A stretch of DNA of 64,000 bases, from contig JAUQVX010000001.1 in assembly GCA_039794565.1 (NCBI GenBank), positions 310,001 through 374,000 of the forward strand, in the 5' to 3' direction. The translations under genes and the position numbers were made by a program. Below the pieces are notes generated by a model, which was not told the DNA's origin, made no database searches, and was given only the letters and a program-made list of their open reading frames with translations. This stretch comes from Gloeomargarita sp. SRBZ-1_bins_9 (GTDB lineage Bacteria > Cyanobacteriota > Cyanobacteriia > Gloeomargaritales > Gloeomargaritaceae). Positions 7,682 through 14,056 of this stretch are shown in pieces; position 1 is the stretch's first letter, and every line of letters begins with the position of its first letter.

Positions 7682-8107
7682 CTACCCCTGGGCCTGGTGG
7701 ATCTCCTGGGCCAATCGGGTATCAATTTGGTAGATATGGTCCAGCAACCAGTCCCCAAGGGCTGCGTGAATTTTGCGAGCTTGTTCTTCACTGGCTCCAC
7801 TCTCGGTATATTCCCGATGCCACTGGTTCAGCATCTCCAGGAAACGAGCATGGGCTTTTTGATTCGTCTCCGCTATGGGACACTGGTGGCGAGACGCACA
7901 GCTTTCCTCTTGACCGAAATGCCATTCAGCGTAACCCTTGAGAAAAGCGATGAGTTTTTTCACCGCCGCCGCCCCCTGTTGCTGTTCAATGGCATCGGCT
8001 AGGTCATTGATGGCTTCAATGAGCTCCCGGTGCTGGTTATCGATCAGCGGCAAACCCACCTTGATCCGTTCATCCCACACGTAGCGGGGTAAAGTTCCTA
8101 GAGCCAT
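7682..8107 (-). CDS. Bacteriohemerythrin-like diiron protein
   Basis: 141 residues, single-domain hemerythrin. Candidate ligands of the oxygen-binding diiron centre are H26, H63, E67, H86, H124 and D129, in the DNQHREL, WHFGQEE, AHARF and DHIYQID motifs. The position four before H86, normally His, is N82 in the stretch CPIAETNQKAH, so one ligand may be missing or replaced; I believe some bacterial hemerythrins share this CPxAxxN variant. Such proteins bind or sense O2. It is the last gene of a leftward cluster, 24 bp after the roadblock gene, which suggests a signalling or oxygen-response role (inference). Confidence 0.85.
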   Translation of the reverse strand: MALGTLPRYVWDERIKVGLPLIDNQHRELIEAINDLADAIEQQQGAAAVKKLIAFLKGYAEWHFGQEESCASRHQCPIAETNQKAHARFLEMLNQWHREYTESGASEEQARKIHAALGDWLLDHIYQIDTRLAQEIHQAQG

Positions 8108-8131
8108 TGTGTGTCCTCCTCACCCCCGGAT

Positions 8132-8530
8132 TTAAGCAATGGAGATCGTATTGCTGCTGGCCGTGAGAAATTCCTGCAACCGGCTGACGAGATTTTTGAC
8201 CTCCAGGTTGATGACACCCAGTTTGGCCTGCCGGTCCGCCAGCACCACCAGTACAGCTTCCTCGGTGCAGTTGGTAATAATCGCCGAGCCTTGGTCCCCT
8301 TCCACCCACACCCGTTCAATCGCACCCCGGTTCAATTCCCGACCGATCCGTTCACTCAAAGACAGCAGGGCTGCCGCCATGGCCGACACCCGCTCCTCGT
8401 CCATCCCCGGCATCAAACAGGAAGCCAGCGCCAGACCATCGGGAGAAACCACCGTCGCCGCCTGAACATTGGCCACCGAACCGACAAATTGCTGCAACGT
8501 CGTCGTTAACTTCGCCACATTAATTGGCAT
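8132..8530 (-). CDS. Roadblock/LC7 domain protein (MglB-like)
   Basis: 132 residues forming one roadblock/LC7 fold: helix, the VQAATVVSPDGLALAS hairpin, a central helix with MAAALLSLSERIGREL, and the GSAIITNCTEEAVLVVLADRQAKLGVI sheet. Proteins of this family act as activators or scaffolds of Ras-like GTPases, as MglB does for MglA. The gene follows the Ras-like GTPase gene after 194 bp containing a TATAAT box, and precedes the hemerythrin gene. This supports a GTPase-partner role, though direct pairing is not shown by sequence. Confidence 0.88.
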   Translation of the reverse strand: MPINVAKLTTTLQQFVGSVANVQAATVVSPDGLALASCLMPGMDEERVSAMAAALLSLSERIGRELNRGAIERVWVEGDQGSAIITNCTEEAVLVVLADRQAKLGVINLEVKNLVSRLQEFLTASSNTISIA

Positions 8531-8572
8531 AACTTTGCCGCCTCCAAACCCATCGAAATAGTGTACTCTTTT

Positions 8573-8578
8573 ATTATA
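8573..8578 (-). promoter_or_regulatory. Candidate -10 box upstream of roadblock/hemerythrin genes
   Basis: A perfect TATAAT on the minus strand lies 43 bp before the roadblock start within an AT-rich 194-bp gap. No TTGACA-like -35 is apparent at 16-18 bp. It could give the last two genes their own promoter. Confidence 0.4.
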
Positions 8579-8724
8579 AAGATCAACGGTAGTCTTTATC
8601 CTATTTCTTTAGGATTTATTTATATCAAAAAATGGTCCAAATTTTCATGCCAACACCCCATTTTGACCCCTTTATTCAGGGGGCGTTAGGGTCAGGAATC
8701 TGGCTATTATAGGCTGCGATTTGT

Positions 8725-9270
8725 TTATGCCTTCGGCATCATCAACTGGCGATGATCGGTGTAACAAAGGCGCACCAGTTGCACCAAAGCAGCCACAACT
8801 GATGCCTTTTGGGTGGCATTTACCGGCAGCAGTAAGTTTGCATCAACCCCCAAAGCCATCCCCACATAGTCCAGCGGCCAGGCTTCGGGTAAATCCGTAT
8901 GGGTGACACCGACCAGATAGGGTAGTTTTACTCGCTGCTGTACAAACGTTGCCATACGACGTGCTGCCCGAAATGCCGCCGGTTGATGCCCCTGGACCAA
9001 AAGGATGTAGGCGTGGGCGTGGCGCAACAAGATTTCCCACATAAAATCAAACCGCTCCTGTCCGGGGGTGCCGTACACATGAAGACTCATGTTGGGGCCA
9101 AATGTGATGCGTCCAAAATCCATAGCCACCGTCGTGGTGGGTTTCAGTAGCCCAGTTTCATCCGTAGCCCGGCGGTCGGTATCCACTGGGGCAATATCAC
9201 TGACGGTCCGCACAAAGGTACTTTTTCCTGCCCCGACCGGACCGGTCACCACAATGCGCATGATGCCCAT
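8725..9270 (-). CDS. Small Ras-like GTPase (MglA/signal-relay type)
   Basis: 181 residues, one G domain. P-loop GPVGAGKST at 10-18, a switch region rich in Thr (PTTTVAMDFGRITF) with the conserved Thr, the YGTPGQERF switch II motif near 65, and THTDL near 120 in place of NKxD. This is the bacterial Ras-like superfamily that works with roadblock proteins. It lies 15 bp after the DUF4388 gene. The likely role is a nucleotide switch for surface motility, polarity or another two-state response; the exact target is unknown. Confidence 0.87.
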   Translation of the reverse strand: MGIMRIVVTGPVGAGKSTFVRTVSDIAPVDTDRRATDETGLLKPTTTVAMDFGRITFGPNMSLHVYGTPGQERFDFMWEILLRHAHAYILLVQGHQPAAFRAARRMATFVQQRVKLPYLVGVTHTDLPEAWPLDYVGMALGVDANLLLPVNATQKASVVAALVQLVRLCYTDHRQLMMPKA

Positions 9271-9285
9271 AGGAACGGGGTCCTC

Positions 9286-10062
9286 CTACCAATTACGCTG
9301 CAAAAACGTGAGGAGGTGCTGGAAAAAACTCTCCGGCAAGGGCGAAGAGGGCGCTACTGATGGAGTGAGATGGATATGGGGCAACTCCACCACCAGCCCT
9401 ACCACCAGCAGGCGAAAGGCCAACTTCTGAACCGCCAACACGGGAACCTGCCATTTTTGGGCGATATCTGCCAGGCTCATTTGCCCGTTGCTGTACTCCC
9501 AGAGCCGCCATTCTTGGCGATTGAGATGATAACGGGGCTGGCCGCCGGTGCTGAGTAAACCCGAACTGGGTTCTGGCAATTTATCCAGCAAATGCTGCCA
9601 ATCTTTTAAGGCCCGCAGCCCGGCCAGAACCACCTCCAGCGGTTGGGCCTGTAAACCCGTCAGGGCCAAGGGTGATAGTTGCACCTGGGGCTGAAAGTGG
9701 AATGGTGCATCGGGCAGGGCCAACAGCCGACAGATGGGGCGAATCACCTGCTGGCAGAACAACCAACGCTGTTGCGGCGCTTTTAAGAGTCCTTGTTCCA
9801 CCAACCAGCGGCCAAAGGGCTGGGTAATCCCCTGGCGACTGTACCAATGGCGCAGATGCTCGAGGGTTTCCGGTCGGAACCAACCCTGGAGAGCCATCGC
9901 CTGGTGCCAATTCCACGCTGGCAGGGACGCGCCCACGATTTGTCCATGGCAAAAACCGATGTGCCAGTGGGCCACTTGCAGCAGACCGGTGGTTTTTTCT
10001 TCCCCTAATAGACGCAATAAATCCGCTAGGGGAAATTCCGCTAATTGCCCCTGAATAGCCAT
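9286..10062 (-). CDS. DUF4388 (PATAN-type) protein
   Basis: 258 residues. The N-terminal region matches DUF4388: IQGQLAEFPLADLLRLLG, TTGLLQV, and the FCHGQIVGA hairpin. The remainder is helical and ends with a winged-helix-like segment (about 190-230, MSLADIAQKWQVPVLAVQKLAF). PATAN/DUF4388 domains occur in cyanobacterial response regulators and type IV pilus control proteins. AAGGAG seven bases before the ATG fixes the start over an upstream GTG. First gene of the four-gene signalling cluster. Confidence 0.8.
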   Translation of the reverse strand: MAIQGQLAEFPLADLLRLLGEEKTTGLLQVAHWHIGFCHGQIVGASLPAWNWHQAMALQGWFRPETLEHLRHWYSRQGITQPFGRWLVEQGLLKAPQQRWLFCQQVIRPICRLLALPDAPFHFQPQVQLSPLALTGLQAQPLEVVLAGLRALKDWQHLLDKLPEPSSGLLSTGGQPRYHLNRQEWRLWEYSNGQMSLADIAQKWQVPVLAVQKLAFRLLVVGLVVELPHIHLTPSVAPSSPLPESFFQHLLTFLQRNW

Positions 10063-13084: not shown

Positions 13085-13126
13085 GCCTATCTATCAGGCT
13101 ATCTATCAAATTGATAGATATCAATG
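13085..13126. repeat. Short direct and inverted repeats at the 3' end of the recombinase gene
   Basis: CTATCTATCA occurs twice in tandem (13088 and 13099 on). The second copy begins a palindrome TATCTATC-AAATT-GATAGATA (13100-13120), which overlaps TTGATA-GA-TATCAA. The block ends at the recombinase stop codon. It may be a terminator, an operator for the Sua5-like gene, or a recombination site; nothing in the sequence decides. Confidence 0.5.
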
Positions 13127-14056
13127 GGGAATCCGTAGGCGGGCGACGGCCTGACGTTGGGTGTGTTCTTCCCGCCGGTCGTAACGGATGGTGGTTTGCA
13201 CCTGGGCGTGACCAGCCAACTTTTGCACGGTGGCGATGTCCACCCCGGCGTCCAGCAGGTTGGAAATAAAGGTGCGTCGCAGGTCGTGGGGGCTAAAAGC
13301 ACTAACCCCTGCTTGGCAGCCCCGTTTGCGCAGGATGTGTAATACGGCCTGGTCGGTCATGGGGCGGATCACCACCTGGCCCCAGCGATTTACCGGACAC
13401 AAAAGCGGCCCGGCCACCCGACCCCGCACCGCCAACCAGCGCCCTAACCACACCTCGGCCCCCGGCGCCAGGTACACCCAGCGGTCCCTGTTGCCCTTGC
13501 CGGAGCGCACGTGCAGGCGACCCAGGTCCGGTTCGTAGTCCGCCAGGGCCAGGCCGACCACCTCCGAGCGCCGCAACCCCGTGCCCACCAGCAGCGCCAG
13601 CAACGCCCCATCCCGATACCCCGCCGGGCTGTTTTCCTGCTGGCAACAGCTCAGCATGGCTTGGATTTCCTCATCCCTGACCAGTCGGCCCCGCAGTAAA
13701 CTCTGCCCCTTGACGCTGGGCACATCTCCTGTCCGGTGATAGTCCTCCGCCGTGAGTAATCCCAAACGCCAACACTCCCGCAGGACACCTCGCAGGGCCG
13801 CCAAATGTTTATTCACCGTCGCCGGGGCGTAGCGTTCCGCCAACCAGGCGCGCAGAGCGGTTGTGTGGGGATAGCGCAGCTGCCACCAGGGAAAGTCCAG
13901 CGCCCCCCCCTTCCCCTGGCTCAGCCAGCGGGCCATCATCTCCAGGGCTTCCCGCAAAGTGCGCCGGGAACCCGGACTGACACGGGCCAGATACACCCAC
14001 ACCGGATGGGCCGTGGCCAGGGTTTCAGAAGGGGACGGAATGAGGGTGGACGACAC
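13121..14056 (-). CDS. Tyrosine recombinase (Xer/phage integrase family)
   Basis: 311 residues. A SAM-like core-binding domain (about 15-105) precedes the catalytic domain (about 125-305). The catalytic set is complete: R162 in GTGLRRSE, K187 in SGKGNRDR, H257 and R260 in PHDLRRTF, H283 in GHAQV and the nucleophile Y292. Length matches XerC/XerD. It is not flanked by phage or transposon genes, so it may be a chromosomal resolvase or a domesticated integrase. GGGGGATAA directly precedes its GTG and overlaps the end of an upstream small membrane gene. Confidence 0.93.
   Translation of the reverse strand: MSSTLIPSPSETLATAHPVWVYLARVSPGSRRTLREALEMMARWLSQGKGGALDFPWWQLRYPHTTALRAWLAERYAPATVNKHLAALRGVLRECWRLGLLTAEDYHRTGDVPSVKGQSLLRGRLVRDEEIQAMLSCCQQENSPAGYRDGALLALLVGTGLRRSEVVGLALADYEPDLGRLHVRSGKGNRDRWVYLAPGAEVWLGRWLAVRGRVAGPLLCPVNRWGQVVIRPMTDQAVLHILRKRGCQAGVSAFSPHDLRRTFISNLLDAGVDIATVQKLAGHAQVQTTIRYDRREEHTQRQAVARLRIPH

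Follow-up and report, generated by a model that had tools for sequence, protein, structure and literature searches.

A conserved GTPase, roadblock and DUF4388 gene trio is coupled to hemerythrin or protoglobin genes in cyanobacteria: a putative gas- or redox-responsive switch

Genes for a small Ras-like GTPase, a roadblock protein and a DUF4388 protein form a conserved trio in cyanobacteria, which is coupled to a single-domain protoglobin, to a variant hemerythrin or to both of these iron proteins. In the Gloeomargarita DNA analysed here (64,000 nucleotides, hereafter the window), the trio stands with the hemerythrin, and we consider it reasonably probable that the products of the four genes work as a single signalling module in which an iron protein provides a gas or redox input to the GTPase switch. 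As judged against the open-access literature, the module is a new form of the small-GTPase/roadblock systems, with a likely gas/redox input. A link between a Ras-like GTPase switch and iron proteins that probably sense gas or redox state has hardly been described in bacteria, and we know of almost no inputs to the bacterial GTPases of the GTPGQ type.

As the earlier note had claimed, the four genes are all present on one strand, the minus strand (open reading frames and Pfam). The features are as follows.

9286..10062, minus strand: DUF4388 (PATAN-type) protein with a C-terminal winged helix, 258 aa (open reading frame, PF14332)
8725..9270, minus strand: small Ras-like GTPase, 181 aa (open reading frame, Pfam, motif conservation in 42 sequences)
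8531..8724, minus strand: AT-rich spacer between the GTPase and roadblock genes (alignment with G085 and G074)
8132..8530, minus strand: roadblock/LC7 (MglB-like) protein, 132 aa (PF03259, E=2.9e-18)
7682..8107, minus strand: bacteriohemerythrin-type four-helix protein, 141 aa (PF01814, NF033749, alignment)

The DUF4388 gene starts with the ATG at 10062, which is preceded by AGGAG; the open reading frame program placed the start at GTG 10065. The intergenic gaps are 15 nt (DUF4388/GTPase), 194 nt (GTPase/roadblock) and 24 nt (roadblock/hemerythrin). The flanking genes are unrelated to the cluster according to Pfam, with an SDR dehydrogenase upstream and a convergent dephospho-CoA kinase downstream. 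Close by, at 13121-14056 of the window, is a gene for a tyrosine recombinase of the phage integrase family. In the source genome (2.2 Mb, 21 contigs), one copy each of the roadblock and hemerythrin families and five DUF4388 matches were found. A 20-nt block in the spacer (8604-8623, ATAAATAAATCCTAAAGAAA) is identical in two related genomes, G085 and G074 (the latter of the same genus), and the rest of the spacer is weakly conserved. The spacer is a possible candidate for a promoter or operator of the roadblock-hemerythrin pair; no sigma-70 consensus was found in it, and scans of its surroundings for sigma-70 promoters and terminators gave nothing above shuffled sequences. Because the gap is AT-rich and holds the conserved block, two transcription units (DUF4388-GTPase and roadblock-hemerythrin) may be as likely as one.

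The spacer between the two gene pairs, and a gene order unlike that of most other cyanobacteria, could be taken as signs that the four genes are chance neighbours. The probability of this is practically nil, since the combination is conserved in cyanobacteria and recurs in other phyla. The earlier note had proposed functional linkage from gene order and called for a comparison across cyanobacteria. In that comparison, for which four protein searches (roadblock, GTPase, DUF4388 and hemerythrin) over the same 194 cyanobacterial genomes were combined, the proposed linkage held. Roadblock was present in 80 of the 194 genomes; among these 80, the GTPase gene was beside it in 74, the trio of roadblock, GTPase and DUF4388 was together in 68 (13 families, 32 genera), and all four genes were together in 20 (5 families, 8 genera). 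The gene order varies while the gene set stays: the commonest cyanobacterial order is roadblock-GTPase-DUF4388, with or without a final hemerythrin, and the group of four genomes to which the window belongs has DUF4388-GTPase-roadblock-hemerythrin, one of the four with an additional DUF4388 gene. In a relative of the window organism (L151), two DUF4388 genes (1746-2852 and 509-1294) lie on either side of the GTPase gene, and thus the shuffled order in the window may stem from duplication and loss. The hemerythrin family was found in 34 of the 194 genomes, 32 of which also have roadblock. At the locus itself, hemerythrin is present in 20 of the 68 trio genomes, and in some others it is at an unlinked site; hence it is not obligatory to the module. 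The module as a whole is dispensable within the genus, since the near-complete genome of another member (G035) gave no match to its roadblock, GTPase, DUF4388 protein, globin or hemerythrin.

The earlier note had likened the GTPase and the roadblock protein to the MglA/MglB motility system. The window GTPase (Pfam ATP_bind_1, 2.1e-15; Ras, 4.4e-5) has the motifs GPVGAGKST (G1), TTV (G2), YGTPGQ (G3) and THTD (G4). YGTPGQ and TTV are present in all 42 GTPases compared, the Thr of the latter replacing the Arg of MglA group 1, and the PDG motif, with the Asp-Gly pair of the coupled MglB homologues of groups 2-5, is present in all 42 roadblock proteins. At G4, [TS]HxD predominates, deviating from NKxD and also from the [NT]KxD of group 5. 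MglA groups 2-5 with MglB-like partners, group 5 being reported from cyanobacteria and some of its genes lying near PATAN genes, are described in passages of Wuichet & Sogaard-Andersen 2014 (PMC4316618). By these passages, the window system shares with groups 2-5 the GTPGQ, the Thr for Arg, the Asp-Gly roadblock and the PATAN/DUF4388 neighbour, and differs from them in G4; their gene-neighbourhood passages mention no protoglobin or hemerythrin partners, which are present here. The motifs thus fit the mechanism published for groups 2-5. The Myxococcus and Thermus MglA/MglB (group 1) have in common with the module a small GTPase and a roadblock protein, and the roadblock protein has a distant match to MglB (6H5B, E=0.06). 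However, identity with group 1 is excluded by YGTPGQ in place of TVPGQ and by the Thr in place of the intrinsic Arg finger before the switch Thr, and the roadblock protein is far closer to other roadblock structures (7F8M, 9JUE and CvnB5, 3LEQ) than to MglB. An MglA/MglB-type polarity system is therefore very improbable; strict group-1 membership is refuted, and a functional analogy is still conceivable.

The hemerythrin is a variant of its family. It matches PF01814 (E=1.1e-13) and NF033749 (bacteriohemerythrin, 90.3 bits, over the cut-off of 84), and its predicted fold is a normal four-helix bundle that matches DcrH-Hr (2AVK, TM 0.82). The metal site of bacteriohemerythrins is described by a seven-ligand motif, H-HxxxE-HxxxH-HxxxxD (PMC9388753). 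In the alignment with DcrH-Hr, six of the seven ligands are kept (H26, H63, E67, H86, H124 and D129), and the first His of HxxxH is replaced by N82. By established hemerythrin numbering, the His expected at this position coordinates Fe1 along with two others; both His of Fe2, where O2 binds, and both bridging acids are kept. Thus, the name of oxygen-binding diiron protein, given to it in the earlier note, is unproven, since one canonical diiron ligand is missing. Among 40 aligned cyanobacterial hemerythrins, N82 is present in 39, C76 in 40 and C70 in 36. A bacteria-wide scan gave 85 hemerythrins, 69 with Asn, of which 67 have C76, and 16 with His, of which one has it; because of this distribution, the Asn-Cys pair is, at the sequence level, a conserved feature of a subfamily and not decay. 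C76 might stand in for the missing ligand, serve as a redox switch or just contribute to packing. An obligatory C70-C76 disulfide is doubtful, since some Asn-type sequences have C76 without C70. In a 2008 list of single-ligand deviations, His to Asn accounts for 7 of 71 alterations, and the portion of that text considered here does not tie these to Cys or to a GTPase (PMC2556348). The window protein thus shares the four-helix fold and six ligands with DcrH-Hr and other bacteriohemerythrins; unlike DcrH-Hr, it has the Asn and two conserved Cys, and it is stand-alone and coupled to the GTPase cluster, whereas DcrH-Hr is fused to an MCP.

In relatives, the cluster usually has a further iron protein. 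Gene-neighbour clustering revealed a gene of about 184 aa, mostly directly upstream of roadblock, in 23 of about 40 loci; its product is a protoglobin (PF11563, relatives at 7.8e-24 and 3.6e-19), of which the best PDB match is Tlr1989 (8H17, E=1.3e-89). A globin of the Tlr1989 type is present in 48 of the 194 genomes, all 48 of which have roadblock, as against none of the 115 genomes without roadblock; Fisher p-values for this co-occurrence overstate independence, the genomes being mutually related, but the pattern itself is very strong. Furthermore, 46 of the 52 globin genes are adjacent, within 2.5 kb and on the same strand. No protoglobin was found in the genome of the window, nor a Tlr1989-type globin in its three closest relatives. 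Searches of the open-access literature, with most subscription journals outside their scope, found no paper on Tlr1989 and no relevant paper on hemerythrin together with roadblock. At 11 loci (L113, L114, L115, L119-L121, L124-L127 and L147), the cluster also has a family of about 160 aa (for example L120:5187-5675) with a conserved CSAGEP-like motif, to which no convincing Pfam match and no PDB match was found; this family is a candidate for a further input protein of the cluster.

The coupling of iron proteins to roadblock extends beyond cyanobacteria. In a scan of GTDB genomes, the Asn-type hemerythrin was found in Chlorobi (L196 and L197) in the order DUF4388-hemerythrin-roadblock-GTPase, with two roadblock genes in Acidobacteria, where it follows them, and in a genome of the Thermoanaerobaculia (L203, L205 and L198 together), and in Verrucomicrobia either in the order protein kinase-unknown-roadblock-protoglobin-hemerythrin-GTPase (L210, L215 and L221) or directly after roadblock (L213 and L214). 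The verrucomicrobial protoglobin matches PF11563 at 6.8e-23. In the same scan, none of 16 His-type hemerythrin genes adjoins roadblock; of 31 Asn-type genes outside cyanobacteria, 19 were without roadblock in the stretch examined, some of them on short contigs. In simple trees, with support values not considered, the Chlorobi roadblocks are placed alongside the roadblocks of the window's group, a position that gene transfer could explain. Two of the verrucomicrobial gene runs (L210:1835-3804 and L215:1593-3646) start with a Ser/Thr protein kinase followed by a gene of about 183 aa, which is perhaps a divergent roadblock; its counterpart in L226 falls just below the Robl_LC7 cut-off. The hemerythrins at L210:4989-5558, L215:4813-5445 and L221:4977-5555 have a proline-rich tail, at the end of which a motif resembling KKWWQ(F/I)GR is conserved. 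A Bacteroidetes contig (L225:666-2928) has three clustered hemerythrin genes, one of the Asn/Cys type and two of the His type with Cys at 70.

In one phylum after another, it is with roadblock that the iron proteins are paired, and the simplest model is therefore that a gas/redox protein acts on roadblock, and roadblock on the GTPase. MglB acts as a GAP-like regulator of MglA. In the proposed mechanism, the GTPase would be the switch, under GAP-like regulation by the roadblock dimer. A cytoplasmic signal (O2, NO or another redox signal) would be bound by, or react with, the hemerythrin or elsewhere the protoglobin, and this iron protein would, through direct contact, alter the action of roadblock on the GTPase. 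In the window's Gloeomargarita group, the hemerythrin would be the sole iron-protein input, because protoglobin is absent and the hemerythrin gene is 24 nt after that of roadblock. The DUF4388 and winged-helix protein may then relay the state of the GTPase; the motor of the type IV pili is the most plausible target, and transcription a less certain one. For the sensory (gas/redox) input as such, we see the balance as slightly favourable. The O2- or redox-type input that the earlier note had suggested is strengthened by the usual presence of protoglobin in the cluster. Points against the proposed module are the lost iron ligand of the hemerythrin, the many trio loci that have no hemerythrin, the 194-nt spacer, the deviating G4 motif and the absence of all these genes from G035.

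Two known systems support an iron-protein input as analogies, not as proof. HGbRL of Methylacidiphilum infernorum is a natural fusion of a globin with roadblock/LC7 that is proposed to relay a ligand signal (PMC4476040). The module likewise joins a globin with roadblock/LC7, in separate proteins; however, the globin of HGbRL belongs to the HGbI/flavohemoglobin-like group and not to the protoglobins, and no hemerythrin or DUF4388 is mentioned in that report. The actinobacterial G protein systems CvnA-D (conservons) have as accessories CvnE, a cytochrome P450, or CvnF, a GAF protein, which are thought to be sensory inputs (PMC13343842). Both the conservons and the module are GTPase-roadblock operons with stand-alone accessories; unlike in the conservons, the accessories here are globin and hemerythrin, plus a DUF4388 protein, and Pfam detected no CvnA histidine kinase or CvnC among the ten genes around the cluster.

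Alternatively, the trio could be a motility or polarity switch with other inputs, such as chemoreceptors or light, and the hemerythrin and globin could be passengers under shared regulation, which would serve in O2 buffering or NO detoxification close to the pilus machinery and would not act on the switch. The scattered occurrence of hemerythrin at the trio loci and its unlinked sites elsewhere are compatible with such passengers, as are the MCP genes of the source genome (four MCP-domain matches); storage or detoxification roles have also been proposed for single-domain hemerythrins and protoglobins, in passages of two papers (PMC2556348; PMC4020757). However, the globin was never found without roadblock, on which a detoxifier should not depend, the linkage of iron proteins with roadblock recurs in four phyla in differing orders, and a globin-roadblock fusion exists in nature. 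We thus regard passengers as unlikely and prefer the iron proteins as inputs. More tentatively, and with somewhat less than even confidence, we propose a multi-phylum class of gas/redox-sensing small-GTPase systems, in which the hemerythrin with C76 and N82, with or without protoglobin, would act in trans on roadblock to set the Ras-like GTPase; such a switch would serve aerotaxis or redox responses and would involve neither a receptor kinase nor a chemoreceptor. If an iron-protein input is right, GTPases of the GTPGQ type would gain a definite input that is open to experiment, namely O2, NO or redox state by way of heme and non-heme iron proteins, and a hemerythrin subfamily would be defined with an altered iron site that is conserved, not decayed. 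The transformable Thermosynechococcus would then be a test organism, in which one module member, Tlr1989, is already solved.

The output of the module would involve the DUF4388 protein, which is likely the effector or scaffold of the switch. Its DUF4388 domain (PF14332, E=1.6e-19) is present in all 33 relatives; a weak winged-helix match (HTH_47, 7e-4) recurs as HTH_47 in 15 of them, and TrmB matches in 6. The winged helix may bind DNA under control of the GTPase, so that the output would be gene expression and not pili, as proposed for group 3 MglA, the neighbourhoods of which encode a receiver-like and winged-helix protein according to parts of PMC4316618. Such an output is compatible with the gas/redox input that we prefer, and the many winged-helix matches among the relatives agree with it. 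However, the helix that would have to recognise DNA (PVLxVQKxxFRL) consists largely of hydrophobic residues and has few basic ones, and Foldseek of the whole protein (AlphaFold model, pLDDT 92.6) against the PDB gave nothing significant, with GATOR1 subunits and PilB N-terminal domains at noise level. Winged helices often serve protein contacts, which also counts against DNA binding, and control of gene expression appears to be a rather improbable output.

A pilus motor is suggested as the target by PATAN-REC regulators (PixE and relatives), whose binding to PilB1 of Synechocystis is cited in a passage of PMC9090330. The window protein has the PATAN/DUF4388-type domain in common with these; unlike them, it has a C-terminal winged helix, and no match to a receiver domain was found in it. 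The source genome has PilT- and PilB-type motors, but co-occurrence with type IV pili is uninformative on the output, because PilB-type genes are present in 188 of the 194 cyanobacterial genomes; the control of surface behaviour, as the earlier note put it, is thus still conjecture. By analogy, type IV pili are plausible, and we offer pilus or motility control as a guess that is more doubtful than the sensory input. The PilB N-terminal domain (T2SSE_N) was not seen among the 25 families listed for the DUF4388 protein at loose Pfam cut-offs. Residues of about 83-107 of the DUF4388 protein (window 9286-10062) form a helical insert of the DUF4388 domain, PLGxxLxxQGxLxxEQLxxLFxxQ, which we take to resemble the PilB N-terminal/MshEN repeat.
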